Assembly (NCBI GenBank): GCA_016744655.1
Contig: JADGDY010000005.1
Coordinates: forward strand, 1 to 64,000
Reading direction: 5' to 3'
Source of the DNA: Bacteroidales bacterium
GTDB taxonomy: Bacteria; Bacteroidota; Bacteroidia; Bacteroidales; UBA12170
Length of the DNA: 64,000 nucleotides
Shown here: piece after piece, positions 26,690 through 38,327 of the stretch
How positions within the stretch are numbered: the stretch's first letter is position 1
How the letters are laid out: every line of letters starts with the position of its first letter
The notes under the pieces: generated by a model
Seen by the model: only the letters and a program-made list of their open reading frames with translations
The model's database searches: none
Told to the model about the DNA's origin: nothing
Made by a program: the position numbers and the translations under genes

Positions 26690-27787
26690 TTACTCTATTT
26701 TAAAATAAAAACTCCCCGGATTCACACCAGCTTTAAAAGAATCCAGAAGATGACCTTGAGGATGGTATCTATAAATGATTCCGTTTTGTTGATAATCTAT
26801 GGCATCTGCAAGATAAACCTGAGAAGAAGTGGGATGGACGGACAAACTATAAAAGCCGCCATATACACCAGTGAAACTACTTTCAATAAAAGGCGTTTCT
26901 GGAAATTGAGCTTCCTCCACATCCATTCGAAACACATGGCGGTTGATAAAGTAAATGGTGTCTTGGCTCCCATTAATACATAATGCAGAAGGGTTTTCTT
27001 CTAACTTGAAACGAAACAATTTTTCTATTTCTAAATTTTGAGCATCTATTTTAACCAAAGCTGGTCTTTCATGGACATATGGGCTTTCAGGATATCCTCC
27101 ATCACATAAAACCCATAATTTGTTGTTCTTATCCATCACCATGCTGTTGGGCTGGGCTGGGACTTCTATGGAGTCAATTACTTGGTCGGTGTTAGAATCA
27201 ATTACTAATATTTGATTGTCAAAAGACCAGCAATTTGTGAAAACCAAATTCTCATACTGAATCATTTGTTCGGTACTATGCTGATAAAAATCAGGATTGT
27301 TATTATTAACATCAATACTTCCTGTTTTTTCATAAGTACTAGGGTTAATAATAGTGATGGCTTTAGCATATAAATCGCTGATATAGGCCTTTTGATCATT
27401 TAGAAAATGAATATAGCGAGGAGAACTTAAACCAGTAATACTTGCTGAGAACTCTATGGAATTTGCATCTGCCACATATACCTTCCCACTATTATTAACT
27501 ACAATAAAGGCTTGTCCGTTATGAATTTCCATCGATTGAGCCACATCACCTAAAGGGGCTGAATTTCTTGCATAGAAAATGTGATTATAAATTCGTTTTT
27601 TCTCAATATCATAAAAACTCAAAGAAGCATTTCCATACATGAAATTCCCTTCGTTTGTAATAAAAACTCCAGAGGTGTTTTCAAAATTAAAAAATACAGT
27701 TTCAACTGGATCTTTTTGACAAGAACTTGTACTAAGAAAAATAGATAGGAGTAGAATGAGGTTTAGAAGAGGGTTTCTGAAATTCAT
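26690..27787 (-). CDS. BtuG-like cobalamin-binding surface lipoprotein (YncE/DUF5074 beta-propeller)
   Basis: A 365-residue lipoprotein. The ATG at 27787 is chosen over one at 27880 because it starts a lipoprotein signal peptide with Cys23 (FLSTSSCQKD). The mature part is a seven-bladed YncE-like propeller opening with GVFITNEGNFMYGNASLSFYD, characteristic of DUF5074/BtuG proteins; ILVIDSNTDQVIDSI is a typical blade. Bacteroides BtuG binds B12 at the surface and passes it to BtuB. Position at the end of a cobalamin-riboswitch operon, 94 bp after the BtuB-like gene, strongly supports that role. The call is by motif and context; affinity is unknown. Confidence 0.85.
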   Translation of the reverse strand: MNFRNPLLNLILLLSIFLSTSSCQKDPVETVFFNFENTSGVFITNEGNFMYGNASLSFYDIEKKRIYNHIFYARNSAPLGDVAQSMEIHNGQAFIVVNNSGKVYVADANSIEFSASITGLSSPRYIHFLNDQKAYISDLYAKAITIINPSTYEKTGSIDVNNNNPDFYQHSTEQMIQYENLVFTNCWSFDNQILVIDSNTDQVIDSIEVPAQPNSMVMDKNNKLWVLCDGGYPESPYVHERPALVKIDAQNLEIEKLFRFKLEENPSALCINGSQDTIYFINRHVFRMDVEEAQFPETPFIESSFTGVYGGFYSLSVHPTSSQVYLADAIDYQQNGIIYRYHPQGHLLDSFKAGVNPGSFYFKIE

Positions 27788-27881
27788 GTGAAAATTATAA
27801 GATGGAGATTCTTTTTCTTTCCCTTTGGGGGTGGAGAAGATAAATAAGAATTTAGAAATGGTACTTATTTTCGATGTCATA

Positions 27882-29891
27882 TTATTTCCTCCATCCTATT
27901 TGCAAATTAACGGAATAATATCTTCCGGGCATAGCACGCCATAAAACACTCATATAGTCTGTGTCAAATAGATTTTCAACTCTTAATCCTAGTTTGGCAT
28001 TTAGTTTTTTCCAAGTAAAATCTTTTTCAAGATTTAAATTAGTTATGGCATAGGCTGAAAGATTGGATTCGTAATCAGATTCTATGTTAGAACTAGTCGT
28101 ATATCTTTTGCCAATGATGGAATTGTCAATGTTCAGTTCCCAGGATTTATAGCTTAAACCAATCATTAGGTTTGCCGTATGGCGAGGAATATAGATTAAT
28201 TGTTTCCCTCTGCTTTCGTCAACAGATTCCATAGCATCTACATTGGTAGTTGCGGTAAAAGCGTAATTGGCCACCGTTTTTAATTTCCAGTTTTTAAAGA
28301 AATCCAGATTATATTTTATATTCCATTCGATGCCTCTAGCAAAGACTTTTTTAATATTGTCTGCTTCCCAATAAAAAGCACCAGAGGAAGATGGGTGCCA
28401 AACTATCCAATTGTCGATTAATGATGCGTAGAAATTTAACTTGGATTCAAAGCTCCAATTGGGTTTTGGTTTTGAGTAAACTAAAGCCAATTCACCAGTA
28501 TAGCCATCTTCAGGAAGAAGGTCTGGATTGCCGCCCGGAATCCAATATAAATCATTGAGGTTTGGTTTGTGATAATTTCTAGATACATTAAATTTAGTAG
28601 TCCATGTATCTTTTTCATCCAAAGCATATTCTAGGCCCAATGATGGAATTAAAATGACAAAGGTATCATCATAAAACTCACTTCTTAGTAGGGCATATGC
28701 TGCTGCTCTATCACTGATTTGAATATTAAGCTGTGCTAAATAACTCAGTTCAAATCGTTCTTCTTTATAACCCGTTTTGTTGGTAGAGTCATAAATATCA
28801 ACTTGGTGAATATTCGCGTCCAAAGAGGTTTTGAAATGAAAAGATTCCTCTTTTTTATATCGATATTCTAGATGATTGAAACTAGATTTTTCTTTACTTT
28901 TAGAATTGAAATTTTCGAATCCTGATTCTGTTGAACTCCTGAAATAATGTAATTCGGTATAATTGATTCCGCTGGTGAATTCCCAATTAGAGTTTCCATT
29001 AAAATATTTCCATGCCCCAATAGCTCTTAATTGGTCATCTTCTTGAGATTCTATTCTATTATCACCCTGAAATGACATTAGTTGTGGAAGGTTTCTGAAA
29101 TTATGATGCCCCCATATTTTTAGAGAAAGCAAATGGTTTTTCTTTATTCTCCCATAAAACTCTTGAAGGAAACCATATTTCTCGTAATCCGCATTTTTCT
29201 GGACATCATCTTGGTATGGAAGAACTCCGTAATTATAAAATGGAAAATCATTTTCAGATTGGTCGTGAAATATTCTAGTTTTAGACTGAAAGTTGGAATT
29301 TCCCAAAGCTAATTCAGCAAACTCTTTATAAGTAGAAAAACTCTCAATGTGTTGAATGTATTTCACTGAAATACGATTGCTCCAATCTGCTTTGTTTTCA
29401 AGACTAATACTTCCTCCAAGTGCTCCACTACCATCGCTTAATGAGCTCCCGCCATGTAATAATTCCACTCTGTCGATAAAATAAACAGGAAATTGCGAAA
29501 AATCCACATCACCACGCATAGGGGAATTGAGACTCATTCCGTTCCAATTGACTTGGGTATGGGATGCTGCTGTTCCTCGAAATGAAGCAGTAGCTGAAGA
29601 ACCTCTGCCGTAGGATTTTATAAATACTGGTGTGCTGGCTGTCATTAAGCTCGCAAGGGATTTCGAGCTTAATGTTTGCAAAGCCATAGTGTCTACCCTT
29701 GACTTGCTCAATGCAACTTCTTCGATGGGTTTTTGAGCTTTTACCTCTACCATTTTTAGCTGAAAAGTGTCTTTTGTTATTTGAGCAGATATTTGATTTG
29801 AGCACAAAAAAGTAACCATGGTAAAAGCTATACCATAAAGAGCCACAAATGATTTCACAAAGAGCCGTATAGAATTAATATGTGATTCCAT
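27882..29891 (-). CDS. btuB: BtuB-like TonB-dependent outer-membrane cobalamin receptor
   Basis: A 669-residue TonB-dependent receptor: signal region ending NQISAQ, plug domain at about residues 40-165 (VDTMALQTLSSKSLASLMTA, the SFRGTAASHTQVNWNGM segment, FIDRVELLHGGSSLSDGSGA), then a 22-strand-type barrel ending in an aromatic terminus. It is about the size of BtuB and lacks the carboxypeptidase-like extension of SusC proteins. Its start codon overlaps the stop of the preceding gene by one base (TAATG). Location behind a cobalamin riboswitch and next to a BtuG-like gene identifies the cargo as cobalamin or a related corrinoid. Confidence 0.9.
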   Translation of the reverse strand: MESHINSIRLFVKSFVALYGIAFTMVTFLCSNQISAQITKDTFQLKMVEVKAQKPIEEVALSKSRVDTMALQTLSSKSLASLMTASTPVFIKSYGRGSSATASFRGTAASHTQVNWNGMSLNSPMRGDVDFSQFPVYFIDRVELLHGGSSLSDGSGALGGSISLENKADWSNRISVKYIQHIESFSTYKEFAELALGNSNFQSKTRIFHDQSENDFPFYNYGVLPYQDDVQKNADYEKYGFLQEFYGRIKKNHLLSLKIWGHHNFRNLPQLMSFQGDNRIESQEDDQLRAIGAWKYFNGNSNWEFTSGINYTELHYFRSSTESGFENFNSKSKEKSSFNHLEYRYKKEESFHFKTSLDANIHQVDIYDSTNKTGYKEERFELSYLAQLNIQISDRAAAYALLRSEFYDDTFVILIPSLGLEYALDEKDTWTTKFNVSRNYHKPNLNDLYWIPGGNPDLLPEDGYTGELALVYSKPKPNWSFESKLNFYASLIDNWIVWHPSSSGAFYWEADNIKKVFARGIEWNIKYNLDFFKNWKLKTVANYAFTATTNVDAMESVDESRGKQLIYIPRHTANLMIGLSYKSWELNIDNSIIGKRYTTSSNIESDYESNLSAYAITNLNLEKDFTWKKLNAKLGLRVENLFDTDYMSVLWRAMPGRYYSVNLQIGWRK

Positions 29892-32308
29892 TATCTTTTG
29901 ATAAGGGTTTTGGTGATTGATTGTCCATCACTAAACACTTGAATAAGGTAGATGCCACTTTCTAAATCACCAAGGTTTACTCGATTAAACTCTTTTACTT
30001 CTCTTACTAGTTGTCCTTGATGATTATAAACTTTCAGTAGCTCAATATTTCTATTTTCAGAGGAATCTATATAAATAACATCCTCAAAAGGATTGGGGTA
30101 AATAGTGAAATGGAGGGGATCGTGTTCTTGAATCCCTGTAGCATTAGCAATGACGATTTGTGCTTTTTGTTCTCCAATGGAAATGAAATGTTGACCAAGA
30201 TTTGAAAGTTTAAATTCTGCTTTCCCATCAGTATCTGTAGAAATATTTGCTCCATCTATAACCAATTGTTCATCATTTAGGAATAAGGAAGCGTTTGCAA
30301 TAGCATTTCTTTCTAATAGTTCCACAATTCCTGATTCAAAGAATTGACATCTTTCCTCTATATATTCGGCAGTAATGGTTTCATTTGGCTTTGAAGAATC
30401 CGCGCTGAGACTTAATTGTTTCACTATCCATTCTACTCTAGAATCTGAAACATGATAAACCAATATTTCGTCTTCATCTTGGATTTCAATTTGGTGCATA
30501 TTCCTAGCGAAACTATTGCCATTAAGATTTATGATCCATGTTCTTGATTTACTATCGTCACTATTATTTCCACCATAACCATAAAAATAGTTTAAACTGG
30601 AATTGTCTTCCTGAGGGACTTTCCAAAGATATAAAGCACTATTTGCAACTTCATCATCTTTAAATTTTAAATCATCAGGTAATCCGATATTATTGAAGGC
30701 AGTTGCAATGGCATGTGCCAAACTTATCTGTTCCACAGCTCCAATTCCGTAATCTTGATTTGGATTATCCACAAAAGGATTAAGGTCGAAATGGTCAATA
30801 TTAATGGCTTGTCGGGCTATGATGTTCTCATCTTCAGTTTGAACAGTGATATAAACTTTTTTACTGAGGCTTTCTGCAAGAATCTGAATTTGAACAGAAT
30901 CTTGAATTAGAGGAAAATCTTTAATTCTGGAATATAGGTAACAGGAGCCTTCTTCTAATCCTTTTATAAAAGTTAAGTTGTTTGCTTGAGTTATCTCAAG
31001 TAATTCAGGGTTTTGGCTTGTCCATTCGGTTTCTAAGCCTAAAACTACCTCATTGTTGAGGTCTTTAATTAATGATTGAACTTCAATCTTATTTAATGCA
31101 TGAATACTTTCTGATTCTAAAATAATCTCAATGGAGGATGGCTCCGAAACTTGAATTTCGAAATAATTAGAAATGTTTTCTTGGTTTTGAATTTTTGCAG
31201 TAATAGTGGCAAGGCCAGATTGATGAGTTTGAATGAGTCCGTGTGCATCTACGCTAGCGATATTTGTATTCGAAGAGCTCCACAAAATATTCTGGGTTTC
31301 AGCTGGGATGCCTGAAATAAAGTGTACGGCTTTGGCTTGTAAGTTATTGTTGATGGTAGTAGTTTTGGGCATATCTGCTAAGGCAAGTAAGTTTACCTCT
31401 CCTGTAATGCTGCTATTTGCTACGACATCGATAATTCCTGAGATTTCAGTAGAAATCTCCCCTAAGCCACCAGCAGTGGCATTAATAGCATTGGTGATTT
31501 TAATAAAATCTATTTTGTCTAATTCAATTCTATTTCCATTCTCATCTCTAGCCCAACTAATGTCCATGGCATCACCGCCAGAATTCTCAAGCTCAAGTGT
31601 GTACGGATTATCAGGAATATTATAAGGTTGGTTTCCTCTCATTCTGTTGTCAGCGAAACCAAAATATCTTTCATAGGATTTGACCATGGAAGGATTAGAG
31701 ATGTCAATGTTACCTTCTAATCTTTGTCCTGATAAAGTGTATGAATCAGGATTGATATTAGGAAATAAGCTGGCTTGAGGATAATAACTTTGTTGGTGGA
31801 AACTGTTTTTGTAAACGTATCCAGAATCTTGGTGGTTATCAATCCATAAAATATCTGTAGCAGAGGCTTCATGGGGATTATAGTAGGTAACAGAATAATC
31901 AACTTCGCTTTGGTCAAGATAATAATCGCTTCCAGCTAATAAATACCACTGGTCATCGGCTAATCCATTATTGTTTTCATCTTTCATGACTTCAACTGTG
32001 GCGGCTTCACTCCAATCGGGGAGTGCATTTCCGAGAATAGTAAAGTCAATTCCGAATGGATTGTCAGGATGATTTTCTACGCTTTCTTCCATTTTGACAA
32101 TAATATAACCACCATAAGCTCCGAGGGAAATTAAACCGCTGGTTCCACCAATAATGCTTTCGGTAGCTTCTGGAGAGCCAAAGGCATTGTCGTTGATAAA
32201 TTGACCTGGAGCTGGTCTGTAATCTATGATTTCCGATACATATTGAGCTTGACTAAACAAGCTAATGCTGAAAAGGAAAGCAAGGGATAAGCGCTTAATT
32301 ATTGTCAT
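29891..32308 (-). CDS. T9SS-secreted cobalamin-locus surface protein with Ig-like and DUF4430-like domains
   Basis: An 805-residue secreted protein. Signal peptide (FSISLFSQAQ) to residue ~21; an N-terminal domain (about 22-300) of the surface-protein type I associate with Bacteroides B12 loci (GAYGGYIIVKMEE, ADDQWYLLAGSDYY); a BIG2-like Ig domain at about 310-390 (ILWSSSNTNIASVDAHG); a second Ig-like stretch; a region at about 480-625 resembling DUF4430/transcobalamin C-terminal-like folds (YFYGYGGN, TWIINLNGNSF, DEDEILVYHV); and a type A sorting domain. DUF4430-like folds occur in transcobalamin, so corrinoid binding is a reasonable inference; it is not shown. Confidence 0.78.
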   Translation of the reverse strand: MTIIKRLSLAFLFSISLFSQAQYVSEIIDYRPAPGQFINDNAFGSPEATESIIGGTSGLISLGAYGGYIIVKMEESVENHPDNPFGIDFTILGNALPDWSEAATVEVMKDENNNGLADDQWYLLAGSDYYLDQSEVDYSVTYYNPHEASATDILWIDNHQDSGYVYKNSFHQQSYYPQASLFPNINPDSYTLSGQRLEGNIDISNPSMVKSYERYFGFADNRMRGNQPYNIPDNPYTLELENSGGDAMDISWARDENGNRIELDKIDFIKITNAINATAGGLGEISTEISGIIDVVANSSITGEVNLLALADMPKTTTINNNLQAKAVHFISGIPAETQNILWSSSNTNIASVDAHGLIQTHQSGLATITAKIQNQENISNYFEIQVSEPSSIEIILESESIHALNKIEVQSLIKDLNNEVVLGLETEWTSQNPELLEITQANNLTFIKGLEEGSCYLYSRIKDFPLIQDSVQIQILAESLSKKVYITVQTEDENIIARQAINIDHFDLNPFVDNPNQDYGIGAVEQISLAHAIATAFNNIGLPDDLKFKDDEVANSALYLWKVPQEDNSSLNYFYGYGGNNSDDSKSRTWIINLNGNSFARNMHQIEIQDEDEILVYHVSDSRVEWIVKQLSLSADSSKPNETITAEYIEERCQFFESGIVELLERNAIANASLFLNDEQLVIDGANISTDTDGKAEFKLSNLGQHFISIGEQKAQIVIANATGIQEHDPLHFTIYPNPFEDVIYIDSSENRNIELLKVYNHQGQLVREVKEFNRVNLGDLESGIYLIQVFSDGQSITKTLIKR

Positions 32309-32329
32309 TTTATTATTGTATTAGTCTTC

Positions 32330-32371
32330 GCAAAAACACCAAAAACTGTTTCTTTGTCTTTGGTGTTTTGC
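32330..32371. other. Intercistronic hairpin inside the B12 operon
   Basis: GCAAAAACACCAAA and TTTGGTGTTTTGC form a 13-bp stem with one bulged A, between the 910-residue and 805-residue protein genes. It could act as a partial terminator or as an RNA-processing or stability element that sets expression of the downstream receptor genes. Confidence 0.55.
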
Positions 32372-32428
32372 AAAAGACATTTGAAATATATAGTTTTTAT
32401 GGTTGTCAGGAAAAAACAGCCAAAAATA

Positions 32429-35161
32429 CTAGTTTTTAATTATCTTTTGAGTATGTGTTTCATTTTCAGAAATTACATGCAAGATATAAGTGCCTGATTC
32501 AAAATTATAGCTGTCAATTTGAGTGTTTCCAATGATGTTAGATTCCCAAATTAATTGACCACCTAAGCTGAAAATTTTAGCTTGAACTGTATTGTTGCTA
32601 TTGCTTTGAATATTAATGCTGTTGTTAAACGGATTTGGTGAACAGATGACATTGCTACTCAATTCTTCAGCAAGACCAACGCTATTGTGAATTGTCACAG
32701 GGATTTCAAAGTCTAAAATACGACCATTTGAAAGTGCTCGTAGACTTATTACTGTCTCACCTGAAACGTCTGGTACAAATTGTAGGTTTAATTTATCATT
32801 TTCAACTGTTGCTGTAATAATACCCTCCTCTGAAATATTAGTAATTTCATATTCTATACCAACTTCTAAATTGTCATTGTCTTCCACTAATAAAGCCAAA
32901 TCAATTTCAATATCTTCGTTATTCATGTTAACATCAACTGAGTATTCATCTTCAACTGAAGGGGCAAATTTATCAACCATTAAAGGCATTGCAGGAAACC
33001 AGTAATAATCTTCTAATTCGTTTGAGGATTCTATATTCCCAGATTCTCCATTAATAATAAATACACTATTATATTTTGAGTTCTCACCCCATCCAGGTTT
33101 GATAGCAGTTGCATAAACTTCATTGCTAACAGGATGAATTCTAAGCCCTGCCCCATAAAAAATCCAATCATCGGTTAGTGTAGCAAATGGAGTGTTTAGT
33201 GAGTTGATATCATCGGTTACGAATTTGTAAATCTCATTGCTACCAGAATATCCATTGGATTTAGAAAAGAATAATGCATTTTCAGTATTGCTTGCGCAAA
33301 AAGATCCAGCATTCCAAGCTCCTGATCCTCCTGCTATTACTAACTCATTCGACAGTGTGATTAATTCGTTTTCTAAAGTCTCGGGGGAGATTTTCAATAC
33401 TTTATTTCCAGCACTCACCCATACAAACCCATCTTTAGTTCTTGCAATTCCATTGATACCTTCAGCAGTAACCGTTTCTACAACGGTATTGTTTTCAAGG
33501 ATAGTTAGATTGCTTCCTTGACAAACAAAAACGTATTTTTCGGCTTTGAGCATTAATCCTGTTTCGCCACTTATTCCTGCGATGTTATCACCTAAGGTTA
33601 GAGTTTCAAGATTTAGAGTTTTAATTCCATTAGAAGTTCCAATATATGCTGTTTGTGCATCATATCCCATAAAAGCGCGTCCATCTCCTCCAATATCTTC
33701 AAAGCTTGCTTCTAATTCCAATGTTTCTCTATCGCAAACCACTAAACGATTTCCTTGTTTCGACATGAACACAACATGGTCGCCAAAAGAACTTGCAAAC
33801 TGCGTGGTTGTACCTAATGATTGTCCTTCGTTTTCATGACGGAATGCTCTATAAACCACATGGCCTTCGTTGGTTAAGAAGTTTACTGTTCCATTATCGT
33901 GGCCAAACCAATCCTCATTAACAATAAATGTCCCTTCGGTATAATTATAATCAAAGATTGTCAATTCAAACTCGTCACTTAAACTTTCACTTCCAGCAGT
34001 TGCAGTAATAGTGATTGAAGATGTACCAACTTCATCATCAGTAGAACTAATTGATAATATGCCCTCCTCTAATTCGATATCTAACAGAGGAGTGTTTGAG
34101 TTAGAAAAAGAAAAAGCTAAATCACCGCCAGCATATTCAAAAACATCATTAATATTAATTTGATAATTATTGGTGTTTTTTGGTAATTCTTTATCGGCAA
34201 TAGGGTTGATTAATTCAATAGTATTTTCAACTTCTTTTTTAATTTCAGCCACTGCTTGAGCATAAGCCATGGTGTAAAATTCTCCACCAGTATTTACATT
34301 TCCTGTAGCTTTTACAAAGGTTAACCATTCGGTTGTTGTACAAGAAGCGGTGTAGTTTTCAGTATTTCCTTCAGTTCCATTCCAGATGGCAACAAAACCA
34401 CCATTTGTAAAATCGTTGCAATTGAAAACTAGATTTTCATTATCATCCATGTCGCAATCATAAGCTCCAGCAGGTAAAGCTGAAAGCGTAGTGGCGTCTC
34501 CAAATGTTAGATTACTTCCTCCATTAATAACTGTTTCAATATCGCTAGCTGCAAATTTTACTACAGAATTATCATCAGCGGAAAAATAACTGGCATAGTA
34601 AATATTTCCTGATTCATCGCAAGCAATTCCAGCAGAGCTTCCTCCAGTTTCTACTATTTTGGCGTGATTGTTATCGCCAGAAATATCGAGGAGCCAAATA
34701 TTGTTAGGATCTCCCCATGTACCAGAGTTTAAGCCAGAGACGAAAATATGTTCTCCAGAAAATTCTAAGTCAAAATTAGCAGGAAGAGTGGCCAAGTGTT
34801 CCCAAGTTTTTAGGCTAAGATCGAAACGATAAATTCTATCGTCGGAATAGTCAGTTTTAGTAAATCCCATCCAAAGGAATTCCCCAGCTGGGTCAACTTT
34901 CATAAACCCTGGTTGTGCGGCATAGCCTTCGGGTTTTGTCTCGGTGTAAAGCTCGCTTCCATCACTTAAATCGTAGGCGTGAATCCCATCGGTATCGAAA
35001 CCATAGAGCTTTCCATCTTTTATTTCGAAAGAAGCGAAAAGCTTATCAGAGATAAGGTCTTTTACTAAAAATCCTTCAGAAGGAGTGAGGTAGTCTGATT
35101 GTGCAAAACTAGTGAAGCACAATGCTAAAAAGGTGATTAAAAGTGTAATCCTTGATTTCAT
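32429..35161 (-). CDS. T9SS-secreted double beta-propeller protein of the cobalamin operon (BtuG-like domain)
   Basis: A 910-residue secreted protein and first gene after the riboswitch. Signal peptide ends LCFTSFAQ. A first propeller spans about residues 22-310 (LYGFDTDGIHAYDLSDG, DDRIYRFDLS). A cadherin/Ig-like spacer follows at about 320-400. A second propeller at about 405-735 opens with GTFIVNEDWFGHDNGTVNFL, the same DUF5074/BtuG entry motif as in the lipoprotein gene of this operon. An Ig-like domain and a type A sorting domain (CSPNPFNNSINI) close the protein. Inference: a corrinoid-binding surface protein exported by T9SS. The first propeller's role is unknown. Confidence 0.82.
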   Translation of the reverse strand: MKSRITLLITFLALCFTSFAQSDYLTPSEGFLVKDLISDKLFASFEIKDGKLYGFDTDGIHAYDLSDGSELYTETKPEGYAAQPGFMKVDPAGEFLWMGFTKTDYSDDRIYRFDLSLKTWEHLATLPANFDLEFSGEHIFVSGLNSGTWGDPNNIWLLDISGDNNHAKIVETGGSSAGIACDESGNIYYASYFSADDNSVVKFAASDIETVINGGSNLTFGDATTLSALPAGAYDCDMDDNENLVFNCNDFTNGGFVAIWNGTEGNTENYTASCTTTEWLTFVKATGNVNTGGEFYTMAYAQAVAEIKKEVENTIELINPIADKELPKNTNNYQININDVFEYAGGDLAFSFSNSNTPLLDIELEEGILSISSTDDEVGTSSITITATAGSESLSDEFELTIFDYNYTEGTFIVNEDWFGHDNGTVNFLTNEGHVVYRAFRHENEGQSLGTTTQFASSFGDHVVFMSKQGNRLVVCDRETLELEASFEDIGGDGRAFMGYDAQTAYIGTSNGIKTLNLETLTLGDNIAGISGETGLMLKAEKYVFVCQGSNLTILENNTVVETVTAEGINGIARTKDGFVWVSAGNKVLKISPETLENELITLSNELVIAGGSGAWNAGSFCASNTENALFFSKSNGYSGSNEIYKFVTDDINSLNTPFATLTDDWIFYGAGLRIHPVSNEVYATAIKPGWGENSKYNSVFIINGESGNIESSNELEDYYWFPAMPLMVDKFAPSVEDEYSVDVNMNNEDIEIDLALLVEDNDNLEVGIEYEITNISEEGIITATVENDKLNLQFVPDVSGETVISLRALSNGRILDFEIPVTIHNSVGLAEELSSNVICSPNPFNNSINIQSNSNNTVQAKIFSLGGQLIWESNIIGNTQIDSYNFESGTYILHVISENETHTQKIIKN

Positions 35162-35365
35162 TCTTATGTGTTTTTACAATTAAAAATTAAAACCCAAGTC
35201 CGAAGAATTTCCCATATTCTGGGGATTCTCAGGTTTGTTATTTGTTAATGTCGCAAGTAAAAAACTGCTAAGATTTAAAAGCAGGTGAAAAGGAAATGTG
35301 TCAACCAGTCAAGGGAACCGGCAGATTATTTGCTTTTTTCTCCGAAAGCTATCAAATCTATGTCC

Positions 35366-35518
35366 ATTGGCAGGTCTTCTGACTTACTCCTTTCAGCGGA
35401 AGCCTTCCCGGTAGCGAACCAGTGGCAATGTTTCCGTGAAATATTTGGAGCTTACAGCAGCGGGAACTGTTCAGGATTTACACCCGATTCCCTATTATTC
35501 CAATAAGCTGGAACCAAT
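35366..35518 (-). promoter_or_regulatory. Cobalamin (adenosylcobalamin-type) riboswitch
   Basis: The minus strand carries the conserved core in order: GGGAATCGGGTGTAAATCC, a segment with CCCGCTGCTGTAAGC, the B12 box GCCACTGG (35419-35426), a CGGGAAGG arm and GTCAGAAGACCTGCC. A closing P1 helix is visible (CCAAT/ATTGG at 35514-35518 and 35366-35370). It lies about 205 bases upstream of the first gene of the B12 uptake operon and should repress it when cobalamin is abundant. No clear U-tailed terminator follows, so control may act on translation. A rightward open frame across it is a coincidence. Confidence 0.96.
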
Positions 35519-35525
35519 TTCGCTG

Positions 35526-35533
35526 CAAAAGTA
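35526..35533 (-). promoter_or_regulatory. Promoter of the riboswitch-controlled B12 operon
   Basis: On the minus strand this reads TACTTTTG followed by CAG, an exact TAnnTTTG match, with a TTG 18 bases upstream (35552-35554) as a possible -33 element. Transcription would begin near 35519, right where the riboswitch P1 helix starts. Confidence 0.7.
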
Positions 35534-35614
35534 AAAATATAAATGAATGGGCAATGTTAAAATAATAATTTATAATGAATTGATAGGGCAGGTGCTTAAC
35601 TGGTAGGATAAGAG

Positions 35615-36898
35615 TTATTTATCGCTTTTTTTTATGCTGTATATTGCATCGAGGTATAACATAGAATCTACAGAGATTCCCTTAGTTTTTGCTTTTTCAT
35701 GAACTTGATTGTACCATTTTTCATTGGTTTTTATATAGTTCATGAGATTTCTGATTTTTTCAGGATCAATTTTTTCAGGTTCATTATTTTCTAATGATTT
35801 TAAAAAACCATAAGGAAACTTATAGAGGTTAGCATCGGTAGCCATTAGAATAACGATATCAGAACTAATTAATTCTTTTCTTGTGTTAATATCTGCTACC
35901 TTAGATTCATTTCTAAGCTGATCAGGATATATTTGTTTATAATAATACCAAAATTCTCCATCTTCAAATACATGTTTTGAAATACCTGTATTGAATATTT
36001 GCCACCAAAAGCTATCGGCGATACTAATAATCTTGGCTTTTTCGAAATCGTTTCCTCGTTCAAAATGAAACTTAGGGTAAGACATTTGGGGAATGTCTAA
36101 GGGAAAAATAAGGTTAAGTCCTTTTTCGATATCTGAATCTTGTTTGTCAGCTTTCGAAACTGGATTTTGGTATTCCCATTTAACATTTCTAAGGTTTTTA
36201 CTTGTTAGAACTTCAGCTTTATTGATTATCGAATCCATAACAAAAGGAATTATACCTTGACTCCAGTGGATTCCTGTTTTTGGGTAAATGACAATAGAAG
36301 AAGTATCCTTCATTTTTAAGAATAAATTATTGAAATCAATATATGGGATCTCTGATCTCGAAAATGCATTTGAATAGGTTTGGTAGTTGGTTTGTGTACG
36401 GGTTTTTATCATAGAATCTGGAATAAATTCTGGGTAAAAGAACCCTTTCCCTGGCGCTAGTATAACAAGTAATTCTGTATGATTCTTTTTCAAAACCTTA
36501 CGTATGCTATCTATTGTTTTTACTTTTTGCAGGATTACCGATTCGCCAATAAAATCATCTCCCAAATAGGATTTTATATAGTTTCTTTCATACAAATATT
36601 GGTTCTTTCCAACGATGACACTATTTGCGTGAACTTTGCCAAATAGAGAATAATCTAATTGATTGTGAAGTCTTACGAATGGAGCTCTAAAACCAAAATT
36701 TTGATTAAAATAAGAATCAAATTGATTTTGAAAAGTGTTATCGAACCAGTCGTTAATAGAAAATTTAGGCAAAGTTGATTTTTCATAACTTCCATGTAAT
36801 CCTTTAACAATAACAATATTCGTTTTGTATTGTATTAAAGGAATAATTAGTCCTATAATAATCAGTATTAGTAATATTTTCTTTAAGGTTTTTTCCAT
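35615..36898 (-). CDS. AlgJ/AlgX-like SGNH-type acetyltransferase-related protein
   Basis: A 427-residue protein with an N-terminal membrane anchor (ILLILIIIGLIIPLIQY) and an extracytoplasmic SGNH/DHHW-type domain of the alginate O-acetylation family. Visible motifs are KNQYLYERNYI, LAPGKGFFYPE, TGIHWSQG (the conserved His) and IISIADSFWWQ (the candidate nucleophile Ser). It starts 1 bp after the stop of the MBOAT gene. In this family the SGNH partner transfers acetyl groups delivered by the MBOAT protein to a surface polysaccharide; the acceptor here is unknown because no glycosyltransferases flank the pair. Confidence 0.85.
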   Translation of the reverse strand: MEKTLKKILLILIIIGLIIPLIQYKTNIVIVKGLHGSYEKSTLPKFSINDWFDNTFQNQFDSYFNQNFGFRAPFVRLHNQLDYSLFGKVHANSVIVGKNQYLYERNYIKSYLGDDFIGESVILQKVKTIDSIRKVLKKNHTELLVILAPGKGFFYPEFIPDSMIKTRTQTNYQTYSNAFSRSEIPYIDFNNLFLKMKDTSSIVIYPKTGIHWSQGIIPFVMDSIINKAEVLTSKNLRNVKWEYQNPVSKADKQDSDIEKGLNLIFPLDIPQMSYPKFHFERGNDFEKAKIISIADSFWWQIFNTGISKHVFEDGEFWYYYKQIYPDQLRNESKVADINTRKELISSDIVILMATDANLYKFPYGFLKSLENNEPEKIDPEKIRNLMNYIKTNEKWYNQVHEKAKTKGISVDSMLYLDAIYSIKKSDK

Positions 36899-36899
36899 T

Positions 36900-38327
36900 T
36901 TAAAATCTAAAATATATAAATGGATTAAAACCTGAACTTGTGATTGAACTAACTGAGAGTATCATTAAAAAGAAGAAAATAAAACAAAAGAATAAATAGC
37001 CTTTAATATTGTATTTTTCGGCAAAGAATACTTTCTGCTCAATTCTTAAACCTAATTTACTCAATGTGAAAAAGGCAAACAAAAAGGCAAAAACCATCAT
37101 GGTCCAAAACTGAGGGCCATAAGCTTTAAGTTGAAGGCCATTGAAATTAAACATAGCTTCAATAAAATAAAAAGCCTGATTCATGCTTTCTGCTCTAAAT
37201 AATACCCAACCAATTATAGTGATAAAGAAAGTTAGAATGATACTGGGGTATTTACCGATTTTCTCACTAAACTTGAGTAAAAACAATCTATCAAGAATTA
37301 AAAAGAATCCGTGAAAAGCTCCCCATATAACAAAATTCCAAGCCGCACCATGCCATAAACCGGAAACTAAAAACACAAACCATAAATTGAAATACATCCT
37401 TCTGGTAGATACTCTACTACCACCAAGAGGAATATATAAATAATCTCTCATCCAACTTCCTAAGGTAATGTGCCACCTGCGCCAAAATTCTGTTATGCTT
37501 TGAGAAGTGTATGGATTGTTAAAATTCTCAGGGAATTTGAATCCCATGATTCTGCCCAAACCTATTGCCATGTCTGAATATCCAGAAAAATCGTAATAGA
37601 TTTGAAAGGTGTATGCGATGATGCCAATCCATGCCGCTGAAGTTGTTAACTCTCCTTCAGCTAGCGCAAAGGCTTGATCAGCTTCAGCCCCCATTACATT
37701 AGCTATTAAAACTTTTTTCGCTAAACCAATTCCAAATCTGAAAAATCCTAACAGTTTGTTGTCGAGGGTTTCTAGATGTTGACGATCCTCAATCTGATCC
37801 GCTATTTGATTAAATCTTACAATTGGGCCTGCAATCATTTGAGGAAATAGCATGATGTAAACTAAATACTGAAACGGGTTTTTTAAGGGTTTATGTACTC
37901 CTCTGAAAACATCGATAGAGTAGGTTAGGGTTTGGAAAGTGTAAAATGAAATACCTATTGGTAGGGCTACTTGTGTCCATTGTAAATTCTCAAAACCCAT
38001 GGATTGGAGCATGTAGTCTACATTTTCAACAAAGAAGTTCGCATATTTAAAGTAAAGTAATAATCCTACATTTATTGAAATGGAAAGAGCGAGTAAATAT
38101 TTTCGATGCAGAGCATTCGAAGATAAATACATATGATTGATGATATAATAATCAAGTATAACTGACCCTACAACAACAAATACAAAAATAGGAGCTCCCC
38201 AAGCATAAAAAAAGATGCTTGCAAAAAGTATAACCCAATTTTTATATGTGTTGTTCTTGAAAAAATGATAGAGCAACAAAAAGATTGGCAGAAAATACAA
38301 TAGAAATAAACTGCTACTGAATACCAT
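36900..38327 (-). CDS. MBOAT-family O-acyltransferase (AlgI-like)
   Basis: A 475-residue polytopic membrane protein with about 11 predicted helices and the AlgI signatures: PQMIAGPIVRFNQI, WRRWHITLGSWMRDYLYIPLGGSR, and GLWHGAAWNF, which contains the catalytic His. The family moves acyl groups, usually acetyl from acetyl-CoA, across the inner membrane to an SGNH partner for modification of polysaccharide or other surface polymers. It is the first gene of a two-gene cassette with the AlgJ-like gene and has an exact -7 element just upstream. Confidence 0.93.
   Translation of the reverse strand: MVFSSSLFLLYFLPIFLLLYHFFKNNTYKNWVILFASIFFYAWGAPIFVFVVVGSVILDYYIINHMYLSSNALHRKYLLALSISINVGLLLYFKYANFFVENVDYMLQSMGFENLQWTQVALPIGISFYTFQTLTYSIDVFRGVHKPLKNPFQYLVYIMLFPQMIAGPIVRFNQIADQIEDRQHLETLDNKLLGFFRFGIGLAKKVLIANVMGAEADQAFALAEGELTTSAAWIGIIAYTFQIYYDFSGYSDMAIGLGRIMGFKFPENFNNPYTSQSITEFWRRWHITLGSWMRDYLYIPLGGSRVSTRRMYFNLWFVFLVSGLWHGAAWNFVIWGAFHGFFLILDRLFLLKFSEKIGKYPSIILTFFITIIGWVLFRAESMNQAFYFIEAMFNFNGLQLKAYGPQFWTMMVFAFLFAFFTLSKLGLRIEQKVFFAEKYNIKGYLFFCFIFFFLMILSVSSITSSGFNPFIYFRF

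Follow-up and report, generated by a model that had tools for sequence, protein, structure and literature searches.

The first 64 kb of contig JADGDY010000005.1 (assembly GCA_016744655.1), from a Bacteroidales bacterium, carries on its minus strand a promoter, a cobalamin riboswitch and four genes in the order S910, H805, btuB and btuG. We refer to this whole 64-kb stretch as the window. S910 and H805 encode proteins of 910 and 805 residues with sorting domains of the type IX secretion system (T9SS), and they share a riboswitch-led gene row with homologs of corrinoid uptake proteins. Are these two proteins B12 binders that reach the cell surface by T9SS? An earlier note on this DNA had guessed, from position alone, that both capture corrinoids. 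Sequence and structure prediction support that guess: H805 has a BtuH domain and S910 a DUF5074 propeller of the BtuK1 type, both from families with proven B12 binders. The parts that the note had listed (promoter, full riboswitch, two T9SS type A proteins, BtuB-like receptor and BtuG-like lipoprotein) were all confirmed. Overall, sequence, structure prediction and genome context support T9SS-delivered B12 capture. The features of the locus are as follows.

35526..35554, minus strand: Bacteroidota-type promoter, TTG-18-TACTTTTG (predicted by consensus match)
35352..35533, minus strand: cobalamin riboswitch aptamer, full length (RF00174, model positions 1-189 of 189, 107.3 bits against a cut-off of 31.5)
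32429..35161, minus strand: S910, 910-residue T9SS type A cargo
34235..35074, minus strand: S910 residues 30-309, N-terminal six-bladed propeller (matches Pizza designs, also six-bladed, at Z about 24)
32972..33949, minus strand: S910 residues 405-730, DUF5074 propeller, BtuK-like (Pfam E 3.7e-91)
32432..32638, minus strand: S910 residues 842-910, T9SS type A sorting domain (TIGR04183 3.5e-13, PF18962 1.7e-9)
32324..32378, minus strand: AT-rich hairpin in the S910-H805 gap (from folding only; possible partial terminator or mRNA-processing site)
29891..32308, minus strand: H805, 805-residue T9SS type A cargo with an N-terminal BtuH domain
31421..32245, minus strand: H805 residues 22-296, BtuH domain of the B12-binding family (phmmer and predicted structure)
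30875..31396, minus strand: H805 residues 305-478, two immunoglobulin-like (Ig-like) domains of the Big_2 type (Big_2 Pfam match and structure comparison)
29894..30103, minus strand: H805 residues 736-805, T9SS type A sorting domain (TIGR04183 7e-13, PF18962 7e-12)
27882..29891, minus strand: btuB, TonB-dependent corrinoid receptor by homology (E 2.1e-98 to BtuB2 of the Bacteroides thetaiotaomicron BtuB2G2 complex)
26690..27880, minus strand: btuG, surface lipoprotein with a seven-bladed propeller (matches BtuG2-type structures at E about 1e-107)

Domains and export signals of H805 and S910

The N-terminal domain of H805 matched the H-domain of BtuGH (8blw_B, phmmer 2.5e-39) and BtuH2 (7biz, 1.2e-30). 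An AlphaFold model of H805 (mean pLDDT 85) aligned with the same two structures, at Z 29.2 and 1.9 Å over 246 residues for the BtuGH H-domain and at Z 29.1 and 2.4 Å over 255 residues for B12-bound BtuH2. The residues through which BtuH2 contacts B12 are Q333, N399, F401, H476, Y510, W511, W577 and L578 (PMC8941943). By alignment, Q333, N399, H476 and L578 are conserved in H805 as Q36, N94, H171 and L282, and Q36 and N94 are invariant in 39 diverse relatives. Beyond the two Big_2-type domains, structure comparison gave only Ig-like matches for residues 480-720, which were not folded alone. A DUF4430-like assignment for the middle of H805 was dropped as unsupported by any DUF4430 match in Pfam; neither DUF4430 nor DUF4465 had a Pfam match in H805 or S910. 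The signal peptide of H805 (...SLFSQAQ) has no lipobox, the lipoprotein mark of characterised BtuH members. Given this and the sorting domain, we classify H805 as a BtuH-domain T9SS protein and not as a BtuH lipoprotein.

S910 runs from a signal peptide through the N-terminal propeller, an Ig-like part, the DUF5074 propeller and another Ig-like part to the sorting domain. The best solved match of the DUF5074 propeller is 9s6c, 'B12 Binding protein - BtuK1' (phmmer 3e-15); in the predicted structure it aligns with BtuK1 at Z 35.3 and 2.5 Å over 309 residues, and BtuG structures rank after it at Z 31-33. BtuK1 itself binds cobalamin (PMC12751083). The S910 signal peptide likewise has no lipobox, the mark of the lipoproteins BtuK1 and BtuK2 of B. 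thetaiotaomicron. In relatives the N-terminal propeller is found by itself as a T9SS protein or joined to DUF4465.

Both sorting domains lie at the extreme C-terminus, with TIGR04183 scores of 48.4 and 49.3 bits against a curated cut-off of 23. The host genome, in an assembly that is 87% complete, encodes SprA and GldM, and the H805 sorting domain matches dozens of sites in it. As for the uptake proteins, the btuB product has a plug domain (2e-14) and its best NCBIfam match is TIGR01779, below that model's cut-off. The likely start of btuG is 27787 (27880 is also possible), and its translation contains the lipobox ...LSTSSC.

T9SS-tagged BtuH and DUF4465 proteins in related genomes

The earlier note had proposed a survey of cobalamin-riboswitch operons for T9SS sorting domains, and these recur with BtuH in the order and with DUF4465 in Bacteroidia. 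A BtuH domain is present in 65 of 295 genomes of the order, and TIGR04183 in 31 of 80 complete BtuH sequences examined there. A T9SS form starts with an ordinary signal peptide, as a rule places its BtuH domain close to the N-terminus and finishes with the sorting domain; in most of the other forms a lipobox is paired with a C-terminal BtuH domain. The T9SS forms sit in operons of the type (S910-like)-BtuH-btuB-btuG, usually with btuB and btuG, and in the 22 genomes measured the T9SS BtuH gene lies 0 to 6.3 kb downstream of a cobalamin riboswitch. Finding such proteins mostly away from B12 riboswitches was an outcome that the note had said would refute its reading; in the related genomes examined, T9SS-tagged BtuH was found downstream of riboswitches.

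T9SS forms of BtuH were present in 36 of 60 SprA-positive genomes versus 0 of 7 SprA-negative ones (Fisher p 0.003). On a tree of 81 BtuH domains, nine changes between the T9SS and lipoprotein routes are needed and five are forced by well-supported branches, so the route has switched several times. Both forms occur in one locus in Coprobacter secundus (L255:4290-11534) and Bacteroides nordii (L256:4264-11558), each in a genome with SprA and each pairing a lipoprotein BtuH with a 1400-residue T9SS BtuH protein.

Full BtuH domains are rare outside the order, where riboswitch-btuB operons hold DUF4465 (BtuJ) proteins instead. Eight distant DUF4465 members bind B12, and the family includes F2I9N3 of Fluviicola taffensis, shown to bind B12 (PMC13398666). 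We found DUF4465 in 111 of 395 Bacteroidia genomes and TIGR04183 in 101 of 110 DUF4465 proteins, two of the 110 being cut by a contig end. When 40 DUF4465 genes were checked, 38 lay no more than 3 kb downstream of a same-strand RF00174 riboswitch, for which we estimate a random-gene chance of about 0.1%. In PMC13398666, more than 70% of the family are predicted lipoproteins, the remainder carry periplasmic signals and type IX secretion goes unmentioned. The discrepancy with our count may be due to sampling, which here was spread over Bacteroidia and there covered the whole family.

The two sets of proteins meet in domain swaps and fusions. Directly upstream of the T9SS BtuH gene, some relatives encode a fusion of the S910 N-terminal domain, DUF4465 and a T9SS domain (L207, L209, L214, L221-L223, L236, L237 and L249). 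The S910 DUF5074 propeller thus stands where a proven type of B12 binder sits in relatives. In L215, L218, L234 and L239, a single chain joins DUF4465, BtuH and a T9SS domain. These arrangements support a common capture function. The phenomenon has a wider scope than the earlier note had supposed, as it includes DUF4465/BtuJ across Bacteroidia. The surveys suggest that a T9SS route for B12 binders is common in this class.

In Flavobacteriales, weak BtuH-profile matches covering only residues 41-95 were not counted as BtuH. B12 operons of the Flavobacteriales type (L156:913-1917, L165:1291-2265, L167:1270-2220 and similar) have a second T9SS protein of about 325 residues between DUF4465 and btuG. 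It shows a short weak BtuH-profile match (about residues 75-130) and otherwise only the sorting domain in Pfam, and could possibly be an unrecognised corrinoid binder.

Control region and other riboswitches of the host

The promoter immediately precedes the aptamer, and its -7 box extends into the first bases of the RF00174 match. It fits the Bacteroidota consensus TTG/TAnnTTTG, of which the minus strand has only 6 matches across the 64 kb, which makes a chance match right next to the aptamer improbable. A scan of the window for E. coli-type promoters and terminators gave no excess over shuffles, as expected for this phylum. RF00174 is the sole Rfam match within the window, and it would imply that the riboswitch places the operon under cobamide-responsive control. 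RF00174 was our only basis for calling riboswitches; a home-made regular expression was dropped because of its many false matches in the window control.

All four genes share one strand, with a gap of 120 bp between S910 and H805 and an overlap of one base between H805 and btuB. The hairpin in the gap is long and AT-rich, and could be a partial terminator that sets how much S910 is made relative to the proteins encoded after it. At 35615-38327 of the window, immediately upstream of the riboswitch and on its strand, lies an AlgX-like and MBOAT-type O-acetylation gene pair, an unrelated neighbour.

The host genome encodes MetH, the B12-dependent methionine synthase. A search of the 87% complete assembly gave no TIGR01467 (cobI/cbiL) match, which is no proof of auxotrophy. 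There are four cobalamin riboswitches in the genome. The second (contig C155; riboswitch and gene together L006:6299-7867) is followed by a lone 434-residue T9SS type A protein (L006:6563-7867, TIGR04183 1.5e-13). Its N-terminal part is propeller-like and has no Pfam or PDB match; the protein has no sequence match to BtuG or DUF5074, and is a candidate further corrinoid binder. This pair of a riboswitch and a lone T9SS protein is kept in three genomes of the genus (the host, L286:1292-2599 and L287:1425-2696). After the third riboswitch (contig C20, locus L005:3522-5479) comes an AspT/YidE-type transporter (Asp-Al_Ex, TrkA_C) without an obvious tie to B12, for which cobamide-regulated efflux or exchange is possible. 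The fourth (contig C76, locus L007:8980-11081) is followed by genes for a diphthamide-synthase-like ATPase (PF01902) and a BtuF-like binding protein.

Proposed capture route, alternatives and known systems

We propose, with a probability of about 0.78 given sequence and predicted structures, that S910 and H805 capture corrinoids at or outside the cell surface after T9SS export and supply them to BtuB-BtuG under riboswitch control. Under cobamide shortage the riboswitch, if it acts as its RF00174 match implies, would permit expression of the operon, and both proteins would then cross the inner membrane by Sec. Judging from their C-terminal type A domains and the T9SS genes of the host, they would pass the outer membrane through T9SS and either remain at the surface, probably held by lipopolysaccharide, or be partly released. 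By homology to B. thetaiotaomicron, they would bind corrinoids there and hand them over to BtuB-BtuG for TonB-driven uptake.

The two proteins could instead be released, diffusible corrinoid carriers, siderophore-like or vesicle-borne, and not surface-anchored. B. thetaiotaomicron uses vesicle-borne BtuJ in this manner (PMC12751083). During export the type A domain is cut off, and cargo retention depends on the lipopolysaccharide of the species. However, PMC5562754 and PMC9143113 describe type A cargo of P. gingivalis as anchored to A-type lipopolysaccharide (A-LPS), and we consider the released form rather unlikely.

Several observations weigh against surface capture by S910 and H805 as such. 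Relative to BtuH2, H805 has F401 replaced by L, W577 by G, Y510 by M and W511 by V, in loops whose alignment is uncertain; the changes at Trp577 and Tyr510/Trp511 may lower its affinity for B12. BtuK2, a close relative of BtuK1, does not bind cobalamin (PMC12751083), so DUF5074 homology alone is no proof that S910 binds. Some SprA-bearing genomes retain lipoprotein BtuH, which means that the presence of T9SS does not dictate the route. Finally, transcription of S910 to btuG as a single unit is presumed, and the gap between S910 and H805 contains a hairpin. The lost Trp577 equivalent and the non-binding BtuK2, together with the Ig-like modules in both proteins, would also suit structural or adhesive surface proteins that have lost corrinoid binding in their BtuH-like and propeller domains. 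This seems improbable given that the Q and N contacts and the riboswitch control are strictly conserved over many families, and that DUF5074 is swapped for DUF4465 at the same gene position. A further alternative gives T9SS no part, with vestigial sorting domains or proteins that stay in the periplasm. It agrees with PMC13398666 in its treatment of non-lipoprotein DUF4465 members as periplasmic, but is very hard to credit when 31 of 80 BtuH and 101 of 110 DUF4465 proteins retain the domain at their very C-terminus, the host has SprA and GldM, and at least five route switches are forced on the BtuH tree.

Beyond T9SS-delivered capture at this locus, it is possible, and we say so tentatively, that T9SS is the usual route for BtuH, BtuJ/DUF4465 and BtuK in T9SS-bearing Bacteroidia, that the lipoproteins of gut Bacteroides are derived or swapped forms, and that some of the cargo is shed as diffusible binders. 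What is known of B12 capture in Bacteroidota comes from gut Bacteroides, whose accessory binders are all lipoproteins. If marine, soil and gut relatives do use T9SS in this way, vitamin acquisition is a further task of a system that has been investigated for proteases, gliding and virulence, and functions can be offered for many proteins annotated merely as 'T9SS type A sorting domain-containing protein'. If true, DUF4465 proteins taken as periplasmic (PMC13398666) would more likely be located on the surface.

T9SS cargo known so far consists mainly of proteases, adhesins and degradative enzymes. In the open-access literature, which was our scope (subscription papers and preprints lying outside it), we found no description linking T9SS to cobalamin riboswitches, BtuB, DUF4465 or B12 uptake. 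These binders appear there as lipoproteins or periplasmic proteins.

The nearest known systems are the btuB/btuG/btuH/btuJ/btuK cobamide loci of B. thetaiotaomicron (PMC6143338, PMC8941943, PMC10404256, PMC12751083). Like the window, they combine a cobalamin riboswitch, BtuB, a BtuG lipoprotein and BtuH-type and BtuK-type domains in one operon. There, however, all accessory binders are lipoproteins and the BtuH domain is C-terminal, whereas the BtuH and BtuK forms of the window have an ordinary signal peptide and a T9SS domain, and in H805 the BtuH domain is N-terminal. Among solved structures, the nearest to the H805 BtuH domain is BtuGH (formerly BtuG1), a BtuG-BtuH fusion, but it is a lipoprotein fused to a BtuG propeller and has no T9SS domain. 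The DUF4465/BtuJ family (PMC13398666) likewise supplies riboswitch-btuB loci with accessory proteins that bind B12. No DUF4465 protein is present in the window; in relatives one stands in the place of S910 and mostly bears a T9SS domain. With T9SS type A cargo (TIGR04183/PF18962), S910 and H805 share the signal peptide, the C-terminal sorting domain and an organism with SprA and GldM. All parts of the locus belong to known families, and it departs from the B. thetaiotaomicron paradigm in its delivery route.

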